A DNA stretch of 64,000 nt. Origin: Candidatus Acutalibacter stercorigallinarum. Lineage in GTDB: Bacteria > Bacillota > Clostridia > Oscillospirales > Acutalibacteraceae. The notes under the pieces are model-generated. The model did not search any database and had not been told where the DNA came from. It worked only from the letters and a program-made list of their open reading frames with translations. Position 1 is the stretch's first letter; the number at the start of each line of letters is the position of its first letter. The position numbers and the translations under genes were made by a program. The stretch lies in the NCBI GenBank assembly GCA_019112625.1, contig DXIW01000035.1, forward strand, positions 1 through 64,000, written 5' to 3'. Positions 49,844 through 60,822 of this stretch are shown here, piece after piece.

Positions 49844-51100
49844 ATGAACGCTGAGATCATTTCTGTGGGGACGGAGCTGCTGCTGGGACAGGTGGTGAAC
49901 ACCGACACCGCCATCGTGGCCCAGGCGCTGTCTGGGTTGGGTATCGATCTGCTGTACTCCGCCGTGGTGGGGGACAACGTGGAGCGCCTGCGGCACGCGG
50001 TAAACACCGCCATCGCCCGCAGCGACCTGCTCATTATGACCGGGGGCCTGGGGCCCACCACCGACGACCTGACCAAGGAGACCACCGCCGCCTGCGCGGG
50101 GAAGAAGCTGGTGCTCCACCAGCCCAGCCTGGACCGGATCTTGAACTACTTCAACGAGAAGAAGGTGAGCTCGAACCAGGAGAAGCAGGCCTGGCTCCCC
50201 GAGGGCTGCCACGTGTTCCAGAACGACAACGGCACCGCCCCGGGGTGCGCCTTCACCGCCCAGAGCGGGTGCCTCATCATCATGCTGCCCGGGCCGCCTT
50301 CGGAGCTCACCCCCATGCTCTACAACTACGTGGTGCCCTACCTGCAGCAGGGCCAGGAGAGCGTCATCGTCTCCCACAACGTGCACATTTACGGCCGGGG
50401 GGAGGCCCCGGTGGCCCAGATGATGGACGACCTGATGGACGGGGTGAACCCCACCCTGGCCCCCTACGCCAAGGAGGGGGAGTGCTACCTGCGTGTCACC
50501 GCCAAGGCGGCCACCGTAGAGGAGGCCGACGCCCTGTGCCAGCCCCTCATCGATGAGATCAAAAAGCGGCTGGGGGAATTCGTCTACAGCGTAGACGTGG
50601 AGACCCTGGAGGAGCTGGTGGTGTCCCTCCTCAAAAAGCAGGGGAAGAAGCTGGCCACTGCCGAGAGCTGCACCGGCGGGCTGCTGGCCAAGCGCATCAC
50701 CGATGTCTCCGGCTCCTCCGCTGTGTTCGACATGGGCTGCGTCACCTACGCCAACGCGGCCAAGGAGATGCTGCTGTCTGTCTCACCGGAGACGTTGGAG
50801 GCCCACGGGGCTGTAAGCCCCGAGACGGCAAAGGAGATGGCCGAGGGCATCGTCCGCCGGTCCGGCAGCGACCTGGGCATCGGCATCACCGGCATCGCCG
50901 GGCCCGAGGGGGGCACCGAGGAAAAGCCCGTGGGGCTCATCTACATCGCCCTCTCCGACGGGGAGCACACCTGGGTGACCAAGCGCAGCCCCATCGGCCG
51001 CACCAAGAGCCGGGCCTGGCACCGCCATTGCGCCGCCAGCCAGGCGTTGGACATGGTGCGCCGGTACCTCACCGGCTTGCCGGTGGTGGCGGAGTCCTGA
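49844..51100 (+). CDS. cinA: CinA family protein (competence/damage-inducible, NMN deamidase)
   Basis: This 418-aa protein has an N-terminal molybdopterin-binding-like (MoCF) domain (about 1-170; SVGTELLLGQVVNTD, TGGLGPTTDDLTKE) with pyrophosphatase activity in some members. A C-terminal CinA/PncC domain (about 255-415; TAESCTGGLLAKRIT, GITGIAGPEGGTEEKPVG) deamidates nicotinamide mononucleotide. It may recycle NMN in the pathway served by nadE at 43 kb. The ATG at 49844 is better spaced from aaggagg than the ATG at 49835. The gene shares one base with the next (TGATG). Confidence 0.92.
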   Translation: MNAEIISVGTELLLGQVVNTDTAIVAQALSGLGIDLLYSAVVGDNVERLRHAVNTAIARSDLLIMTGGLGPTTDDLTKETTAACAGKKLVLHQPSLDRILNYFNEKKVSSNQEKQAWLPEGCHVFQNDNGTAPGCAFTAQSGCLIIMLPGPPSELTPMLYNYVVPYLQQGQESVIVSHNVHIYGRGEAPVAQMMDDLMDGVNPTLAPYAKEGECYLRVTAKAATVEEADALCQPLIDEIKKRLGEFVYSVDVETLEELVVSLLKKQGKKLATAESCTGGLLAKRITDVSGSSAVFDMGCVTYANAAKEMLLSVSPETLEAHGAVSPETAKEMAEGIVRRSGSDLGIGITGIAGPEGGTEEKPVGLIYIALSDGEHTWVTKRSPIGRTKSRAWHRHCAASQALDMVRRYLTGLPVVAES

Positions 51101-52050
51101 TGGAACGCCCTGTCACCGGCCGCTTTGCCCCCACCCCCAGCGGGCGGATGCACCTGGGGAACCTGTTCTGCTCCCTGTTGGCCTGGCTGGCCGCCAAGAA
51201 GGAGGGGGGCCGGGTAGTGCTGCGGATAGAGGACCTGGACCAGCTGCGCACCAGCTCTGTGTACGCGGAGCAGGCCGAGGCGGACCTGAAGTTTTTAGGG
51301 CTTTTTTGGGACGAGGGCGGCAGCCTGGGCGGCCCCCACGCCCCCTATGACCAGGGCAGCCGCTCCCCTTACTACCAGGAGCTGCTGGGGCGCCTGGAGG
51401 CCCTGGGCCTGGTGTACCCCTGCTTCTGCAGCCGGGCGGAACTCCACGCCGCCAACGCCCCCCACGCCTCCGACGGGGAGGTGGTCTACGCCGGCACCTG
51501 CCGGGGCTTGACGAGGGAGGAAATCGCGGAAAAATCCCGGAAACGGCCCCCGGCCCTGCGGCTGAAAGTCCCGGCGGAGAAAGTCGCCTTTGTGGACGGC
51601 CACTACGGCTTGGTGGAACAGGACCTGGCCACAGAGTGCGGGGATTTTATCCTCCGCCGCAGCGACGGGGTGTTCGCCTACCAGCTGGCGGTGGTGGCCG
51701 ACGACGCCGCCATGGGGGTGACCCAGGTGGTGCGGGGCCGGGATTTGCTCTCCTCCGCCCCCCGGCAGCTGTATTTGTACCGGCTGCTGGGCTTTCCGGA
51801 GCCGGCGTTCGCCCACGCCCCCCTGCTGCTGGCCCCGGACGGCCGGCGGCTCTCCAAGCGGGACCGGGACGTGAGCCTGGAAGCCCTGGAGGAAAAGGGC
51901 CTCACTGGGCCGGAGATCGTGGGGCGGCTGGCCTTTCTGGCGGGGCTCCTGGACCGCCCGGAGGCGGCCCGGCCCCAGGACCTGCTGCCGGTGTTCGCCT
52001 GGGACAAGGTGCCCCGGGAGGACGTGTGCCTGCCCCAGGGGCTGTTCTGA
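51100..52050 (+). CDS. gluQ: Glutamyl-Q tRNA(Asp) synthetase
   Basis: This 316-aa truncated glutamyl-tRNA synthetase paralog lacks the anticodon-binding domain. It activates glutamate and attaches it to queuosine in tRNA-Asp. It has the HIGH-like PSGRMHLGN, a zinc site with CFCSRAEL and a later Tyr/Cys (YAGTCR), and the KMSKS-like RRLSKRDRDVS. The length is that of GluQ rather than GltX. It starts on the last base of the cinA stop. It implies that the organism makes or salvages queuosine. Confidence 0.92.
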   Translation: MERPVTGRFAPTPSGRMHLGNLFCSLLAWLAAKKEGGRVVLRIEDLDQLRTSSVYAEQAEADLKFLGLFWDEGGSLGGPHAPYDQGSRSPYYQELLGRLEALGLVYPCFCSRAELHAANAPHASDGEVVYAGTCRGLTREEIAEKSRKRPPALRLKVPAEKVAFVDGHYGLVEQDLATECGDFILRRSDGVFAYQLAVVADDAAMGVTQVVRGRDLLSSAPRQLYLYRLLGFPEPAFAHAPLLLAPDGRRLSKRDRDVSLEALEEKGLTGPEIVGRLAFLAGLLDRPEAARPQDLLPVFAWDKVPREDVCLPQGLF

Positions 52051-54516: not shown

Positions 54517-54561
54517 TCCTGTGGGAATTGTAAATTTATCGTGAAGGCTTCCCCCGGGCGG

Positions 54562-54590
54562 TTGAAAAACCCGGCGGGGAAGGGTATACT
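54562..54590 (+). promoter_or_regulatory. Promoter of zinc-ribbon membrane protein operon
   Basis: TTGAAA (54562-54567), a 17-bp spacer and TATACT (54585-54590). Transcription would start near 54597, so the coding start must lie downstream of it. Confidence 0.7.
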
Positions 54591-54612
54591 GAAAAACAGA
54601 TCGGGAAAGGAT

Positions 54613-55017
54613 GTGTTTTGGTTGCTGTTCCAGAAATTCCAGCAGTTCATGTACGGCCGCTACGGCGGGGATACCTTCAGCCTGGCGCTGCTGGTGATCG
54701 CCCTGGTACTCTCTTTGATCGGCGGGCTGTTCTTCTGGCCCGTCACCCTGCTGGCGGATGTGGTGTACATCTACGTGCTGTTCCGCATGTTCTCGAAAAA
54801 TATCCCTGCCCGGCAGCGGGAGTATTACGCCTTTTTGAAGGTGTGGGAGCCGGTGAAGAAGTGGTTCCGGTTCCAGAAGCAGAAGTTCGACCAGCGGGGG
54901 ACCTACAAATACTTCAAGTGCCCCAACTGCAAGCAGCAGCTCCGGGCGCCCCGGGGCCGGGGGAAGATCGAGGTCACCTGCCAGAAGTGCCATACGGTGT
55001 TCCGCACGAAAACATAA
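54613..55017 (+). CDS. Small membrane protein with C-terminal zinc ribbon
   Basis: This protein of about 134 aa has two adjacent hydrophobic segments (about 25-65, LALLVIALVLSLIGGLFFWPVTLLADVVYIYVL) followed by a basic stretch. Its zinc ribbon is C-P-N-C...C-Q-K-C (KCPNCKQQLRAP, TCQKCHTVF). The function of this family is unknown; the ribbon faces the cytoplasm if the two helices form a hairpin. The start is uncertain: GTG 54613 lies very close to ggaaagg, and TTG 54622 is the alternative. The 54541 GTG is excluded by the promoter. It precedes the glycerol-1-phosphate dehydrogenase gene by 25 bp. Confidence 0.7.
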   Translation: MFWLLFQKFQQFMYGRYGGDTFSLALLVIALVLSLIGGLFFWPVTLLADVVYIYVLFRMFSKNIPARQREYYAFLKVWEPVKKWFRFQKQKFDQRGTYKYFKCPNCKQQLRAPRGRGKIEVTCQKCHTVFRTKT

Positions 55018-55042: not shown

Positions 55043-56215
55043 ATGGAACATTTCGCTGACTGGCCCGCCGGGAGATTCCCGGGGGCAGAGCTGGACTGCG
55101 CCTGCGGCAAGCGCCATCTGGTGGGCATCCGCAGCATCCGCATCGGCAGCGGGCTCCTGCGGGAGCTGCCCCAGCTGCTGCAGGAGCTGGGGGCCCGGCA
55201 GGTCTACCTGCTGGCGGACCACAACACCTGGAAGGCGGCGGGCCAGCAGGCCGCGAACAGGATGGAGGCCATGGGGCTGCCCTTCCACGGGAGGATCTTC
55301 CAGACGGAGAAGCCCCTGGTGCCCGACGAATACGCCGTGGGCTCGGCCCTGGCGGCCATGGAGCCCGGGGACGACCTGATCCTGGCGGTGGGCTCCGGCA
55401 CCCTGAACGACACCGCCCGCATCCTCAGCGCCCGCACCGGGGTGCCCTACGTCATTGTGGCCACGGCCCCCTCTATGGACGGCTTCGCCTCCACGGTGTC
55501 GCCGCTGATCTTGGACGGGAAGAAGATCACCAAGCCCGCGGTGTACCCGGCGGCGATTCTGGCGGACACTTCGATTATGAAAGACGCCCCCATGCCCATG
55601 CTCACCGCCGGGTTCGGGGATATTATCGGCAAGTACACGGCTCTGGCGGACTGGCGGCTGTCCCGGGACCTGAACGGGGAGTACTACTGCGAGGAGTGCG
55701 CCGCCCTTATGGCCCGGGCCGTGGAGAAGTGCGCGGAAAACGCCGATGGCCTGCGCCGGCGGGACGAGCAGGCGGTGGAGTACGTCACCGAGGCGCTGGT
55801 GCTCTCGGGCATCGCCATGGGCATGGTGGGCAACTCCCGGCCCGCCTCCGGCGCGGAGCATCACTTTGCCCACACCTGGGAGGTGGACGCCCTGGCCCGG
55901 GGGGAGGAGCACCCCCTGCACGGCAATTCCGTGGGGGTGGCGGCGGTGGTCTCCGCCTCCTTGTACGAGCTGGCGGCGGACCTGCTGCCCGAGGGCTTCC
56001 AGCGGCCGGACAAGGCCCGCATCCTCCAGTGTCTGGAGGCGGCGGGAGCCTGCGCCGACCCCAAGTCCCTGGGCATCCGCCGGGACCTGTTTTTCGAGAG
56101 CGTGCTCCACGCCATGGAGATCCGGGAGCGGTTCACCATCCTCCGGTTTTTGGATGGGAAGGCCCTGCTGCCCGCCTGCGCCGTGGAGCTGACCAACCGG
56201 TTTTACCCGGTGTAG
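55043..56215 (+). CDS. sn-Glycerol-1-phosphate dehydrogenase-like protein (AraM/EgsA family)
   Basis: This 390-aa member of the iron-ADH/glycerol dehydrogenase superfamily resembles AraM, which makes sn-glycerol 1-phosphate from dihydroxyacetone phosphate. Visible motifs are VGSGTLNDTAR (about 115-125), the APSMDGFAS loop, GFGDIIGKYTALADW with a metal Asp, and metal His residues in GAEHHFAHTWE and LHGNSVGVA. In Bacillus this product feeds heptaprenylglyceryl phosphate lipid synthesis. No prenylglyceryl transferase is nearby. It is 25 bp behind the zinc-ribbon gene and 15 bp before the AI-2E-type transporter gene. Confidence 0.85.
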   Translation: MEHFADWPAGRFPGAELDCACGKRHLVGIRSIRIGSGLLRELPQLLQELGARQVYLLADHNTWKAAGQQAANRMEAMGLPFHGRIFQTEKPLVPDEYAVGSALAAMEPGDDLILAVGSGTLNDTARILSARTGVPYVIVATAPSMDGFASTVSPLILDGKKITKPAVYPAAILADTSIMKDAPMPMLTAGFGDIIGKYTALADWRLSRDLNGEYYCEECAALMARAVEKCAENADGLRRRDEQAVEYVTEALVLSGIAMGMVGNSRPASGAEHHFAHTWEVDALARGEEHPLHGNSVGVAAVVSASLYELAADLLPEGFQRPDKARILQCLEAAGACADPKSLGIRRDLFFESVLHAMEIRERFTILRFLDGKALLPACAVELTNRFYPV

Positions 56216-57460: not shown

Positions 57461-57507
57461 CAGCGGCGCCTGGGAAGGAAAAGTCCCGGGCGCTGTTATT
57501 TTTTTCT
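57459..57507 (+). terminator. Terminator before dinB promoter
   Basis: The stem taacagcg/cgctgtta, extended by an inner cctggga/tcccggg, is followed by TTTTTTTC. The T-run abuts the dinB -35. Confidence 0.85.
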
Positions 57508-57561
57508 TGACTTTTCGAACGCATGTTCTATAATAGGAGATAGAAAACGAACGCACGTTTG
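57507..57561 (+). promoter_or_regulatory. dinB promoter with two LexA (SOS) boxes
   Basis: TTGACT (57507-57512), a 16-bp spacer and TATAAT (57529-57534). LexA box 1 is cgaacgcatgttct (57516-57529), filling the space between -35 and -10. Box 2 is cgaacgcacgtttg (57548-57561), just after the start of transcription. Both fit the Gram-positive CGAAC-N4-GTTCG consensus with one mismatch each. LexA binding would block RNA polymerase at two points. Confidence 0.85.
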
Positions 57562-57580
57562 CTGTAAGGAGGGGAGCGCG

Positions 57581-58771
57581 GTGGAAAACGGCATCCTGCA
57601 CGTGGATATGAACAACTTTTACGCCTCGGTGGAGACGCTGTTCGCCCCCCAGTACCGGGACGTGCCCATGGCGGTGGCCGGTGACAAGGAGAGCCGCCAT
57701 GGCATTATCCTGGCGAAAAACATGCTGGCCAAGGAGCGAGGGGTCAAGACGGCGGAGCCCATCTGGCAGGCCATGCGCAAGTGCCCCGACCTGCAGCTGG
57801 TGCCGCCCCACCACCGGCGGTACGCGGAGTTCTCCCGGCTGGCCCAGAAAATCTACTACGACTACACCGACCGGGTGGAGCCCTTCGGCCTGGACGAGTG
57901 CTGGCTGGACGTGTACGGCAGCCAGCGGCTGTTCGGGGACGGGGAGGAGATCGCCCAGGCCATCCGCCAGCGGGTGAAGGCGGAGCTGGGGCTCACCGTG
58001 TCCGTGGGGGTGTCCTTCAACAAGGTGTTCGCCAAGCTGGGCAGCGACTACAAAAAGCCCGACGCGGTGACGGTCTTTGGCCGGGACAAGATGGAGAGCG
58101 TGATCTGGCAGCTGCCCGCCGGGGACATGCTGCTGGTGGGGCCCACCACCCAGCGCACCCTGGCAAAGTACGGGGTGGCCACCATCGGGGACATCGCCCG
58201 GCTGGACGTGAAGGTGCTCCAGCGGCTGCTGGGCCGGCTGGGGGAGACCCTGTGGCGCTACGCCAACGGCCTGGACGACTCCCCGGTGCGGAAGGCGGGC
58301 CAGGCCGAGGAAGTAAAGACCGTGGGCAACAGCACCACCCTGCCCCGGGACGTGACCAGCGAGGAGGAGATCCGCCGCACTTTGCTGGAGCTGGCGGAGT
58401 CCGTGGGGGCCCGGCTGCGCAGGATGGGCCTGAAGGCCGGGGAGGTGCAGATCACCGTGCGGGGCGGGGACTTCCAGGAGATCCAGCGCCAGCGGAAGCT
58501 GGACCCGCCCGCCTGCGACTCCCAGACCCTGTACCGGGCGGCGCTGGACCTGTACCGCCGGGAGAACAAGCACTGGCCCGTGCGGCTGTTGGGGGTGCGG
58601 GCCGGGCGGTTGACCGGGGACGGGGAGGAGCAGACCAGCCTCTTCGGGGAGGAGGACCGGGAGCGCCTGGAGCGGCTGGAGTCCGCGGTGGACCTGGTGC
58701 GGGAGCGGTTCGGCAAGGGCAGCGTGGCCCGGGCCCTGTCCCTGGAAAAGGAGGAGAAGCGAGATGGATGA
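57581..58771 (+). CDS. dinB: DNA polymerase IV (Y-family, translesion)
   Basis: This 396-aa error-prone polymerase bypasses damaged template bases. The metal ligands are Asp9 (HVDMNNFYASVE) and Asp105-Glu106 (GLDECWLDV). The fingers/palm, thumb with helix-hairpin-helix (LLGRLGETLWRYANG) and C-terminal little finger domain are all present. A C-terminal QTSLF segment (about 354-358) is a beta-clamp binding motif. The start is GTG 57581 with a taaggagg site. The promoter has two LexA boxes. It overlaps the radical SAM gene by 8 nt, so both are induced and translated together. Confidence 0.95.
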   Translation: MENGILHVDMNNFYASVETLFAPQYRDVPMAVAGDKESRHGIILAKNMLAKERGVKTAEPIWQAMRKCPDLQLVPPHHRRYAEFSRLAQKIYYDYTDRVEPFGLDECWLDVYGSQRLFGDGEEIAQAIRQRVKAELGLTVSVGVSFNKVFAKLGSDYKKPDAVTVFGRDKMESVIWQLPAGDMLLVGPTTQRTLAKYGVATIGDIARLDVKVLQRLLGRLGETLWRYANGLDDSPVRKAGQAEEVKTVGNSTTLPRDVTSEEEIRRTLLELAESVGARLRRMGLKAGEVQITVRGGDFQEIQRQRKLDPPACDSQTLYRAALDLYRRENKHWPVRLLGVRAGRLTGDGEEQTSLFGEEDRERLERLESAVDLVRERFGKGSVARALSLEKEEKRDG

Positions 58772-60065
58772 GCTGCTGAAAAAGCTGGAGGTCCTTACCG
58801 ACGCGGCGAAATACGACGTGGCCTGCACCTCCAGCGGGGTGGACCGGCCCGGCAGGCCGGGGGCCCTGGGCAACGCGGTAAAGGCGGGCATCTGCCACAG
58901 CTTTGCCGCCGACGGCCGGTGCATCTCCCTGCTGAAGGTGCTTCTGTCCAACGACTGCGCCTATGACTGCGCCTACTGCGTCAACCGCCGCAGCTGCGAC
59001 GGCCCCCGGGCCACCTTCACCCCGGAGGAGCTGTGCCGGCTCACCGTGGAGTTTTACCGGCGCAATTACATCGAGGGGCTGTTTTTGAGCTCGGCGGTGG
59101 TGAAAAACCCGGACTACACCAGCGAACTCATGCTGACGACCCTGAAAAAGCTCCGGGAGGAGGAGCGGTTCTGGGGGTATGTCCACGTGAAGGCCATCCC
59201 CGGGGCGGACCCCCGCCTCACCCATGCCCTGGGCCTGTACGCCGACCGGATGAGCGTGAACATCGAGCTGCCCTCCCAGAAGAGTCTGGCCCTGCTGGCC
59301 CCCCAGAAGAGCAAGGAGAAGATCCTGGCCCCCATGGGCCTGATCCGGGACGGCATAAAGGAGAACGCCGCCGACCTGGCGCGCTACCGGGCCGCGCCCA
59401 AATTCGTGCCGGCGGGGCAGTCCACCCAGATGATCATCGGCGCCACCCCGGAGACGGACCGGCAGATTCTGGCCCTCACCGAGGGGCTGTACCGGAAGTA
59501 CCAGCTGAAGCGGGTGTTCTTCTCGGCCTATATGCCGGTGGTCAGCGATCGGAACCTGCCCGCCCGGGACACGCCCCCGCCCCTGCTGCGGGAGCACCGG
59601 CTGTACCAGGCGGACTGGCTGCTGCGGTTTTACGGCTTTTCCGCCGGGGAGATATTAGACGACCAGCACCCGGACTTCAACCCCCTGCTGGACCCCAAGT
59701 GCAACTGGGCGGTCAACCACATGGAGCACTTCCCGGTGGAGGTGAACCGGGCCCCCTACGAGATGCTGCTGCGGGTGCCGGGCATCGGGGTAAAGAGCGC
59801 CAAGCGCATCCGGGCGGCCCGGCGCTACGCCGCCCTGGACTTCGACGCCCTGAAAAAGCTGGGGGTGGTCCTCAAGCGGGCCCGGTATTTTATTCTGTGC
59901 GGCGGGAAGAGCATCTCCCCCCTGCCCATGGACAACCCGGCGGTGATCGCCGGGGCAGTGAGCGACCGGGGGTTCTCCCCGCGGGAGCTGGCCCCGCCGG
60001 AGCAGCTCTCCCTGTTTGCCCCCACCAAGGAGGATGGTGTGAAATGCCTGACCGGTCAAATCTAG
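58764..60065 (+). CDS. Putative DNA modification/repair radical SAM protein
   Basis: This 433-aa protein has the radical SAM 4Fe-4S motif Cys65-x3-Cys69-x2-Cys72 (NDCAYDCAYC), a TIM-barrel core, and a helix-hairpin-helix DNA-binding motif near 335-365 (LLRVPGIGVKSAKRIRAAR). It belongs to the family described as a radical SAM protein linked to a uracil-DNA-glycosylase-like partner (TIGR03916 by recognition, not by search). The chemistry is unknown; a spore-photoproduct-lyase-like repair of a DNA lesion is one idea. The last residues hold a QLSLFAP clamp-like motif. It overlaps dinB by 8 nt and the next gene by 22 nt, in one SOS operon. Confidence 0.9.
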   Translation: MDELLKKLEVLTDAAKYDVACTSSGVDRPGRPGALGNAVKAGICHSFAADGRCISLLKVLLSNDCAYDCAYCVNRRSCDGPRATFTPEELCRLTVEFYRRNYIEGLFLSSAVVKNPDYTSELMLTTLKKLREEERFWGYVHVKAIPGADPRLTHALGLYADRMSVNIELPSQKSLALLAPQKSKEKILAPMGLIRDGIKENAADLARYRAAPKFVPAGQSTQMIIGATPETDRQILALTEGLYRKYQLKRVFFSAYMPVVSDRNLPARDTPPPLLREHRLYQADWLLRFYGFSAGEILDDQHPDFNPLLDPKCNWAVNHMEHFPVEVNRAPYEMLLRVPGIGVKSAKRIRAARRYAALDFDALKKLGVVLKRARYFILCGGKSISPLPMDNPAVIAGAVSDRGFSPRELAPPEQLSLFAPTKEDGVKCLTGQI

Positions 60066-60796
60066 TCTACCGCTACGACGGGACGTACCAGGGGTTCCTC
60101 TGCTGCGTGGCCCAGTGCTTTGCGGACAAGGGGCTGCCCCAGGCGGTGCAGCGGTGGGAAGAGCCCCAGGCCACCCTGTTCCCCCTCCAGGGGGTGGACA
60201 CGGACCTGGACCTGGCCCAGCGGGTGGAGCGGTCCATCCGGAGCAAGGCCTCGCCGGAGGCGCTGCGCTGGGTGCGGGACGGCTTTTTGAGCTGCGAGGC
60301 CCAGAAGGAGCTGCTGCTCATCCGCTTTGTGCTGCTGGGGTATAAGTACGGGGCAAAAGTCACAGGGCTTACGGTGCAGCCCGACGTGTGCGCATTGTGG
60401 AAAACCGTGCGGGCTGTGCGCAACGAGGCCCACTGCTACCTGGAATTCCTGCGGTTTTCCGACCTGGGGGGCTTTTTGGTGGGGGAGCTGGCCCCAAAGA
60501 ACACGGTGCTGCCCCTGATCGCCGGGCATTTTTGCGACCGGCTGCCGGAGGAGGACTTCGTGCTGTACGACAGGACCCACGCCATGGGCTTCTTCCACCG
60601 GCGGGGCGGGCAGCGGGAATTTTTCCACGCGGACAGCATCGACCTGCCCGCCCCCGGGGAGGAGGAGCAGCGCTACCGGGCCCTGTGGAAGGGCTTCTAC
60701 CGGGCCATCGCCATCGAGGGGCGGAGGAACCCCAAGCTCCGCCGCAGCATGATGCCCCTGCGCTACTGGCCCGATCTGACAGAATTCCAGCCCTGA
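60044..60796 (+). CDS. DNA-metabolism protein of the radical-SAM-linked DUF4130 family
   Basis: This 250-aa protein starts LVYRYDGTYQGFLCC, as members of the TIGR03915/DUF4130 family do. It has the conserved AVRNEAHCYLEFLRFSD segment and ends with FYRAIAIEGRRNPKLRRSMMPLRYW. Members occur next to the radical SAM gene, either alone or fused to a uracil-DNA-glycosylase domain. Here it is unfused. It is likely a nucleic-acid-binding or processing subunit. The ATG at 60044 has a strong aaggagg site and overlaps the previous gene by 22 nt, so tight co-expression is expected. Confidence 0.88.
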   Translation: MPDRSNLVYRYDGTYQGFLCCVAQCFADKGLPQAVQRWEEPQATLFPLQGVDTDLDLAQRVERSIRSKASPEALRWVRDGFLSCEAQKELLLIRFVLLGYKYGAKVTGLTVQPDVCALWKTVRAVRNEAHCYLEFLRFSDLGGFLVGELAPKNTVLPLIAGHFCDRLPEEDFVLYDRTHAMGFFHRRGGQREFFHADSIDLPAPGEEEQRYRALWKGFYRAIAIEGRRNPKLRRSMMPLRYWPDLTEFQP

Positions 60797-60822
60797 GCGC
60801 TGGCCCAGGGCTGGAATTTTTC
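60783..60822 (+). terminator. Terminator of the SOS operon
   Basis: The stem aattccagccctg/cagggctggaatt overlaps the end of the last gene and is followed by TTTTCTG. Confidence 0.9.

Follow-up and report, generated by a model that had tools for sequence, protein, structure and literature searches.

What does a radical S-adenosylmethionine (SAM) enzyme do in an operon that begins with a bypass polymerase and carries LexA-type boxes on its promoter? The question is raised by contig DXIW01000035.1 of Candidatus Acutalibacter stercorigallinarum, of which positions 1 to 64,000 were analysed as one stretch (the window, 64,000 nucleotides). Three genes overlap there: dinB, encoding a Y-family DNA polymerase IV (Pol IV), a gene of the radical SAM family TIGR03916 (rSAM gene) and a gene of the TIGR03915/DUF4130 family, with 8 nt shared by dinB and the rSAM gene and 22 nt by the rSAM and DUF4130 genes. 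An earlier note, drawn from the letters of this DNA, had these genes, their coordinates and both overlaps right; the sigma-A-type promoter around box 1, a clamp-like QTSLF in DinB, three additional invariant cysteines of the rSAM protein and a terminator-like hairpin at either end of the unit are absent from it. Taken as a whole, we consider it rather likely that the unit encodes a LexA-induced, DNA-acting rSAM enzyme which docks on the sliding clamp and has the DUF4130 protein as its near-constant partner.

The rSAM protein tail and the sliding clamp

The rSAM protein of the window scores 654.2 bits with TIGR03916, against a cut-off of 343.5, and covers model columns 2-414 of 415. Within the family, the sequence past the conserved barrel and helix-hairpin-helix (HhH) is variable, save for one pentapeptide which reads QLSLF in the window. 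QL[SD]LF is the canonical β-clamp peptide. The tails of 180 of 199 proteins could be anchored and gave 171 distinct sequences, the other 19 proteins not being counted. Of the 171 tails, 119 contain a strict motif, Q[LM][SD][LFMI]F (shuffled mean 0.13, maximum 2 in 300 runs), and 164 a relaxed clamp motif (shuffled mean 6.5, maximum 14). In the last 60 residues of 907 other open reading frames (ORFs) of at least 300 codons from the same loci, the strict form was present once and the relaxed form 15 times, and among 30 spore photoproduct lyases (the loci returned from matches in 60 of 119 genomes) the counts were zero and one. The motif ends anywhere from 0 to 71 residues before the C-terminus. 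Its glutamine, Q414 in the window protein, is kept in 65 of 66 aligned rSAM proteins, while the flanking columns of the tail are mixed; the alignment is drawn largely from Bacillota, and eight of its rows come from Pseudomonadota, Fusobacterium and phage-collection records. In the structure model the mean predicted local distance difference test score (pLDDT) falls to 58 for residues 401-410 and 51 for residues 411-420, and the tail is probably disordered.

The mark by which a β-clamp client is recognized, a QL[SD]LF-type peptide conserved within a flexible tail, is thus present in the rSAM protein, and the presence of such a motif throughout the family makes the TIGR03916 proteins predicted clamp clients. 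For the window protein we regard docking as highly likely. This prediction, already made in the earlier note for the single protein, is now extended to the family. Full-text searches of open-licence papers brought up, among the matches listed, no mention of a clamp motif for TIGR03916, which is no proof of absence. The pentapeptide also offers a test of rSAM function at the level of a peptide.

Some tails weigh against so general a conclusion. Seven of the 171 lack even the relaxed motif, and the Fusobacterium protein (L249, QLKLF) and that of a record filed under Acinetobacter (L252, ...QLSLGF) are weaker matches. All 14 rSAM proteins read from Pseudomonadota end in QLxL[FLI], of which three (QLQLL twice, QLRLL) fall outside the relaxed pattern.

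Clamp-like peptides were also seen in the two neighboring proteins. A QTSLF lies near the C-terminus of DinB, as judged by eye. The DUF4130 protein contains QATLF, which was considered and rejected as a feature of that family, since the loop around it is ordered (block pLDDT 94) and the position is a Q in only 36 of 69 proteins and fits Q..[LMIF][FLYMW] in 33 of 69.

LexA-type boxes at the promoter and in other lineages

The two LexA-like boxes that the earlier note had placed on the dinB promoter are indeed present, one inside the promoter spacer and one just downstream of the -10 element, and they exceed chance in the strict form. The 2.19 Mb genome contains CGAACRNRYGTTYK three times, two of them at the dinB promoter, and the reversed control pattern not at all. 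Within the window CGAACNNNNGTTY has three occurrences, a number reached in 2 of 100 shuffles. The promoter at 57507-57534 is the best of four promoter-like sites in 3.5 kb (0.3 expected). The host encodes one LexA match (201 bits) and RecA, and variants of the LexA-type palindrome are found at two further places, TAAACAAATGTTCG near recA, 160 bp ahead of where the model match begins, and CAAACAAATGTTTG upstream of lexA, at a distance of 104 bp. With a box in the promoter and LexA encoded in the same genome, we think it very probable that the unit is under LexA control.

Looser patterns do not stand out from the background and count against an excess of boxes over chance. The form GAACNNNNGTTY is not significant in the window (four matches, reached in 23 of 100 shuffles), and across the genome CGAACNNNNGTTCG with one mismatch (35 per strand) is no commoner than its control (53 per strand). 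The third strict site of the genome (G000:C41:73346-73359, L262) lies in a stretch with an ORF resembling, by eye, a helix-turn-helix repressor, possibly the repressor of a mobile element.

A further comparison comes from homologous loci, for which we have scored the 150 bp upstream of the unit. This could be done for 180 of 199 rSAM loci, 19 being set aside because of a contig edge, a missing start, a run of N or duplication; Gemmatirosa (L256) is among the loci left unscored. The 152 units in which the rSAM gene comes first come mostly from Bacillota (L180, L225 and L245 carry other labels). Exact GAACN4GTTC was found in 57 of these 152, in 9 of 19 units that begin with dinB, in none of the 9 units of the remaining set and in 6 of 1035 control regions, which belong to mechanically called and in part spurious ORFs. 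Allowing up to one mismatch, the corresponding counts are 113/152, 16/19, 1/9 and 39/1035. Overlap between a box and a TTGNNN-N15..18-TANNNT promoter is seen in 72 of all 180 units and in 16 of the 19 that begin with dinB; 11 of the 19 have two sites 23-33 bp apart. The three dinB-first units without a promoter-box overlap are L063, L169 and L150, the last with an exact site farther upstream, at -165.

Outside Bacillota the rSAM gene carries boxes of other styles. In all 13 alphaproteobacterial loci read, GAACN7GAAC, which we take to be the alphaproteobacterial LexA box, begins 17-45 bp ahead of the rSAM gene, and the 95,579 bp of these loci contain just 14 copies of it. In one betaproteobacterium (Caballeronia) CTGTN8ACAG is found 29 bp before the rSAM start, its sole occurrence in 9,116 bp. 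These 14 pseudomonadotal loci were hand-chosen among the 40 listed of 158 plasmid records, and for the Ensifer gene (L329) the start was taken from a tblastn match instead of an annotation. The consensuses CTGTN8ACAG and GAACN4GTTC are those given in the C. difficile LexA paper (PMC4234289), in which the term 'radical SAM' was not met with. Three operator types upstream of one gene point to selection on SOS control. LexA control, which the earlier note had proposed for the single unit, is supported by the paired boxes, by the promoter pattern kept in the genus and by the boxes that the rSAM gene carries in other lineages, each in the style of its lineage.

Several loci do not follow the rule and detract from it. 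Within the 150 bp scored, no box with up to one mismatch is seen in 39 of the 152 rSAM-first units, nor in L063 and L169, the two dinB-first loci from outside the genus. The Fusobacterium locus (L249) and the Acinetobacter record (L252) have none of the three tested box types. On a contig from a phage collection (L258, human faeces) there is no exact box of the three types, though it has CAAACAAATGTTCG.

Partners of the rSAM gene

Is dinB part of the system? The polymerase itself is unambiguous, with IMS and IMS_C domains (PF00817, PF11799) and 387.5 bits for NF002848 against a cut-off of 381, and its gene is the only PF00817 match in the host genome (86% complete). TIGR03916 is present in 25 of 29 genomes of the genus, the host included. 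Of the 24 others, 21 have dinB upstream of the rSAM gene and on its strand; it was not seen in L140, L157 and L162, loci which reach only 1.5 kb upstream. The two genes overlap or lie at most 125 nt apart in 16 of the 21, and in one genome (L144) dinB is split over two frames. Outside the genus we have sampled 160 loci, 32 from the family, 48 from the phylum and 80 from GTDB. Here dinB is upstream in two (L063, L169) and downstream in one (L070), leaving 157 without a dinB match in the fetched stretch. Of the 186 loci made up by these together with the window and the genus, by contrast, 179 have a DUF4130 match beside the rSAM gene, usually in the order rSAM gene then DUF4130 gene. Because DUF4130 is near-constant and dinB rare outside the genus, the old unit is the rSAM-DUF4130 pair and dinB a local addition. 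The dinB operon is thus a genus-level variant of a known system, and a general dinB-rSAM partnership is ruled out by the 2 of 160 upstream cases. The survey of homologs suggested in the earlier note accordingly bore out its LexA boxes, in the style of each lineage, and failed to bear out dinB as a general partner.

The same counts raise the question of whether the linkage has any meaning. It is a real possibility, if one that we would not put at even chances, that dinB simply moved beside a LexA-controlled pair and shares nothing with it except the promoter, a situation compatible with the account that we favor for the pair itself. Besides the near-confinement of upstream dinB to the genus, this would fit with the pair's having its own LexA boxes elsewhere and with five of the 21 genomes (L143, L146, L147, L148, L155) in which the rSAM gene starts only 311-693 nt after the dinB stop, distances which also count against the account that we favor. 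Mere promoter sharing is less easily reconciled with an arrangement kept in 21 of 24 other genomes and tight in 16 of 21, or with clamp-type motifs on both DinB and the rSAM protein.

The DUF4130 protein is equally well assigned (TIGR03915, 219.4 bits against a cut-off of 112.25; PF13566, 150.9 bits against 27). Six residues, R137, P151, F163, R166, R227 and E247, are invariant over 66 proteins and look like a binding or catalytic site. DHH phosphoesterases head both of its fold lists, weakly (PDB, E 3.1e-3, TM-score 0.38; BFVD, E 5.4e-4, TM-score 0.36), and profile comparison by hhalign with 15 NrnA-type and 28 RecJ-type sequences gave probabilities of 0.11% and 0.05%. In view of the low TM-scores and the null profile comparison we do not claim DUF4130 as a DHH phosphoesterase.

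The earlier note had further linked both families to uracil-DNA glycosylase (UDG)-type genes. This holds for the Pseudomonadota loci read, where the neighbor of the rSAM protein is annotated as UdgX and its N-terminal half matches DUF4130; the other half we take as the UDG domain. It does not hold for the sets dominated by Bacillota: a query with the UDG half matched 6 of 13 other loci and 0 of 186 loci of these sets, in a single phmmer search which could miss distant UDGs. The window protein itself shows DUF4130 only in a Pfam search of its 250 residues, with no UDG domain.

Features of the unit and its borders in the window
Feature	Position	Strand	Remarks
Terminator-like hairpin	57462..57497	+	14-pair stem then ATTTTTTTCT; comes after the preceding AI-2E-family transporter gene; borders the unit on its upstream side
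Sigma-A type promoter TTGACT-N16-TATAAT	57507..57534	+	11/12 consensus bases
LexA-type box 1, CGAACGCATGTTCT	57516..57529	.	inside the promoter spacer, reaches the -10
LexA-type box 2, CGAACGCACGTTTG	57548..57561	.	just downstream of the -10
dinB, Y-family DNA polymerase IV	57581..58771	+	GTG start; PF00817/PF11799
TIGR03916 rSAM gene	58764..60065	+	433 aa; additional Cys 21/44/53, CxxxCxxC 65/69/72, HhH ~325-354, low-confidence tail
QLSLF codons, predicted β-clamp docking motif	60003..60017	+	rSAM residues 414-418, C-terminal tail
TIGR03915/DUF4130 partner gene	60044..60796	+	250 aa; one ordered fold in the model (mean pLDDT 95.2)
Terminator-like hairpin closing the unit	60800..60814	+	6-pair stem then AATTTTTCTG; weaker than the upstream hairpin

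Further upstream, the window encodes an Fe-ADH-type protein (55043-56215) whose best NCBIfam match, NAD(P)-dependent glycerol-1-phosphate dehydrogenase, reaches 224 bits, under the cut-off of 413. A 158-aa ORF at 54541-55017 has, by eye, hydrophobic stretches and a CPNC...CQKC zinc-ribbon-like end and is without a Pfam or NCBIfam match. At 51100-52050 the match is to the catalytic domain alone of a Glu/Gln tRNA synthetase (PF00749), which is the arrangement of a Glu-Q-RS-type tRNA modifier.

Chemistry, rival readings and known systems

The Cys triad, the HhH and the QLSLF that the earlier note had read from the rSAM protein are all there. C65, C69 and C72 of the triad are invariant in all 66 aligned proteins, and so are three further cysteines, C21, C44 and C53, a conservation which suggests a second metal site; no statement on these was found among the matches listed for open-licence papers. 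HydE, lipoyl synthase and biotin synthase, which are among the top fold matches, also speak for two metal sites. Two points tell against such a site, the lower certainty of the model around the additional cysteines (block pLDDT 67-82) and the fact that these could bind zinc or be structural. Shorter rSAM paralogs exist in three genomes of the family (L334:1932-3260 on the minus strand, L335 and L336:2270-3523). They lack the three N-terminal cysteines and have no DUF4130 match in the fetched stretch (only 3 kb for L335), which hints, from three cases, that these cysteines and DUF4130 go together. In two of the three, GAACN4GTTT sites lie close to the start and the tail contains QTSLY or QLSFE.

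A ComEA-like HhH was found with the family profile (E 2.6e-5). Apart from this domain, the matches of the profile among solved structures were confined to the Cys-triad stretch in HydE or HydG, and no close solved relative was found by sequence. The HhH has its own weak side: PF12836 on the single sequence gives 21.2 bits, under the cut-off of 27, and an HhH is no proof of DNA chemistry. Overall we think it likely that the substrate is DNA or bound to DNA.

The alternative is an enzyme whose target is a tRNA, a protein or some metabolite required in the SOS response, and for which docking on the clamp serves only regulation or turnover. The best-ranked solved folds listed by Foldseek (HydE, lipoyl synthase, biotin synthase, viperin and HydG) include no DNA enzyme, and three N-terminal cysteines ahead of CxxxCxxC recall what we take to be the arrangement of the sulphur-inserting LipA and MiaB, with MiaB and RimO also among the fold matches. 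Nevertheless the ComEA-like HhH, the near-universal clamp motif and the fusion of the partner to a UDG-type domain in Pseudomonadota all point to DNA, and we judge a non-DNA substrate to be improbable.

Spore photoproduct lyase is a radical SAM enzyme of DNA repair. This enzyme is absent from the 50 Foldseek matches listed, the rSAM protein has no NCBIfam match besides TIGR03916 at E 0.001, TIGR04070 (SplB) has no match in the host genome, and a profile comparison to 30 lyase sequences gave a probability of 5.8% over 36 columns around the Cys triad. On the NCBIfam result and the profile probability we reject membership of the lyase family. With an alignment so short and improbable and no lyase in the fold list, the label 'SplB-like' that appears in one publication (PMC3765255) is not borne out beyond the common superfamily.

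A role in anti-phage defense induced by damage was also considered. Viperin-like rSAM proteins are defense enzymes, viperin is among the fold matches, and homologs occur on plasmids (158 records) and in 10 phage-collection records. As no PADLOC model matches the rSAM or the DUF4130 protein we have dropped the reading of a defense system; LexA control, the HhH and the clamp motif fit repair, and altogether a defense function seems very improbable. The plasmid records include 58 from Phaeobacter, and 142 of the 158 are typed non-mobilizable. The record filed as Acinetobacter phage (L252, CAKLQH020000003.1) has the rSAM-DUF4130 pair beside glyS and glyQ and looks like bacterial DNA filed as phage.

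We can now return to the DNA-acting enzyme that we favor and propose the following sequence of events. LexA bound to box 1 in the promoter spacer and to box 2 would repress the unit, and inactivation of LexA upon damage would allow Pol IV, the rSAM protein and the DUF4130 protein to be made together. The rSAM protein would act on DNA by means of its HhH and catalytic barrel, with the flexible tail docking its QLSLF-type peptide in the β-clamp cleft that is also used by DinB. Since Pol IV and the rSAM protein would both hold the clamp via QxSLF peptides, they could share or exchange it at a stalled fork or a repair patch. Radical chemistry starting from SAM, in which a second metal site formed by the three additional cysteines probably takes part, may then be directed at a replication-blocking base lesion, or at a product left by bypass, depending on whether the enzyme acts before or after the polymerase. 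DUF4130 could present the substrate or process the product. Direct reversal of a lesion by the rSAM protein is the more doubtful part, to which we would give well under even odds.

The pair might instead edit bases at the clamp and so change what the bypass polymerase inserts, without restoring the original base. The regulation and the clamp evidence fit such editing equally well, the pair is co-transcribed with the only Y-family polymerase found in the genome, and a figure legend in a 2013 paper terms DUF4130 a predicted mutagenesis-related enzyme (PMC3765255). The 157 of 160 outside-genus loci without a dinB match in the fetched stretch count against this reading. No edited base is known, and nothing here separates repair from editing, which we nonetheless consider unlikely.

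In its widest form the proposal is a tentative one: that TIGR03916 is a family of replisome-docked rSAM DNA enzymes with two metal sites, clamp clients at SOS-stalled forks together with DUF4130, carrying out a base-lesion reaction unlike that of spore photoproduct lyase and, in this genus, joined to Pol IV such that bypass and lesion processing take place on one clamp. If true, this would be to our knowledge the first case of a radical SAM enzyme held at the replisome, and a repair arm may have been added to the translesion operon of one bacterial genus. It would then be clear where and when a widespread rSAM family acts, at the sliding clamp and during the SOS response, which narrows the search for its substrate to lesions met at replication forks.

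How does the unit compare with known systems? Both proteins score well above the cut-offs of TIGR03916 and TIGR03915/DUF4130 and stand in the usual rSAM-DUF4130 order; TIGR03916 (rSAM_link_UDG) is presumably the COG4277 family. The unit in the window differs from other such systems in that dinB comes first and that its sigma-A-type promoter has a pair of LexA boxes. With spore photoproduct lyase (TIGR04070, SplB) the rSAM protein shares radical SAM chemistry, the CxxxCxxC motif and a link, here a predicted one, to DNA repair, but the profile match is limited to the Cys triad and the strict clamp motif is absent from all 30 lyases. ImuA-ImuB-DnaE2 and DinB/UmuC SOS operons are LexA-controlled units of clamp-using bypass polymerases. 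In the window, the polymerase is joined to the rSAM and DUF4130 proteins instead of ImuA, ImuB or UmuD. The operon context of ImuA-ImuB-DnaE2-type units is treated in the same 2013 paper (PMC3765255).

SOS control in Clostridia has its prior art in the LexA control predicted for CAC3343-CAC3344 of Clostridium acetobutylicum (PMC3828012). This concerned one genome and was based on footprint prediction and expression data; in the part available, no dinB is named in the unit and no clamp motif noted. A COG1573-COG4277 pair of Bacteroidetes, UDG with COG4277, has likewise been predicted to be LexA-controlled, and a UDG-based COG4277-type system is reported also in Verrucomicrobia and Alphaproteobacteria (PMC8565304). 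That pair includes a uracil-DNA glycosylase and was read as base excision repair, in contrast to our Bacillota-dominated loci, which lack a match to the UDG half (0 of 186). LexA control of the pair is thus already predicted in print, while the clamp motif is a family-wide prediction that makes the function testable.

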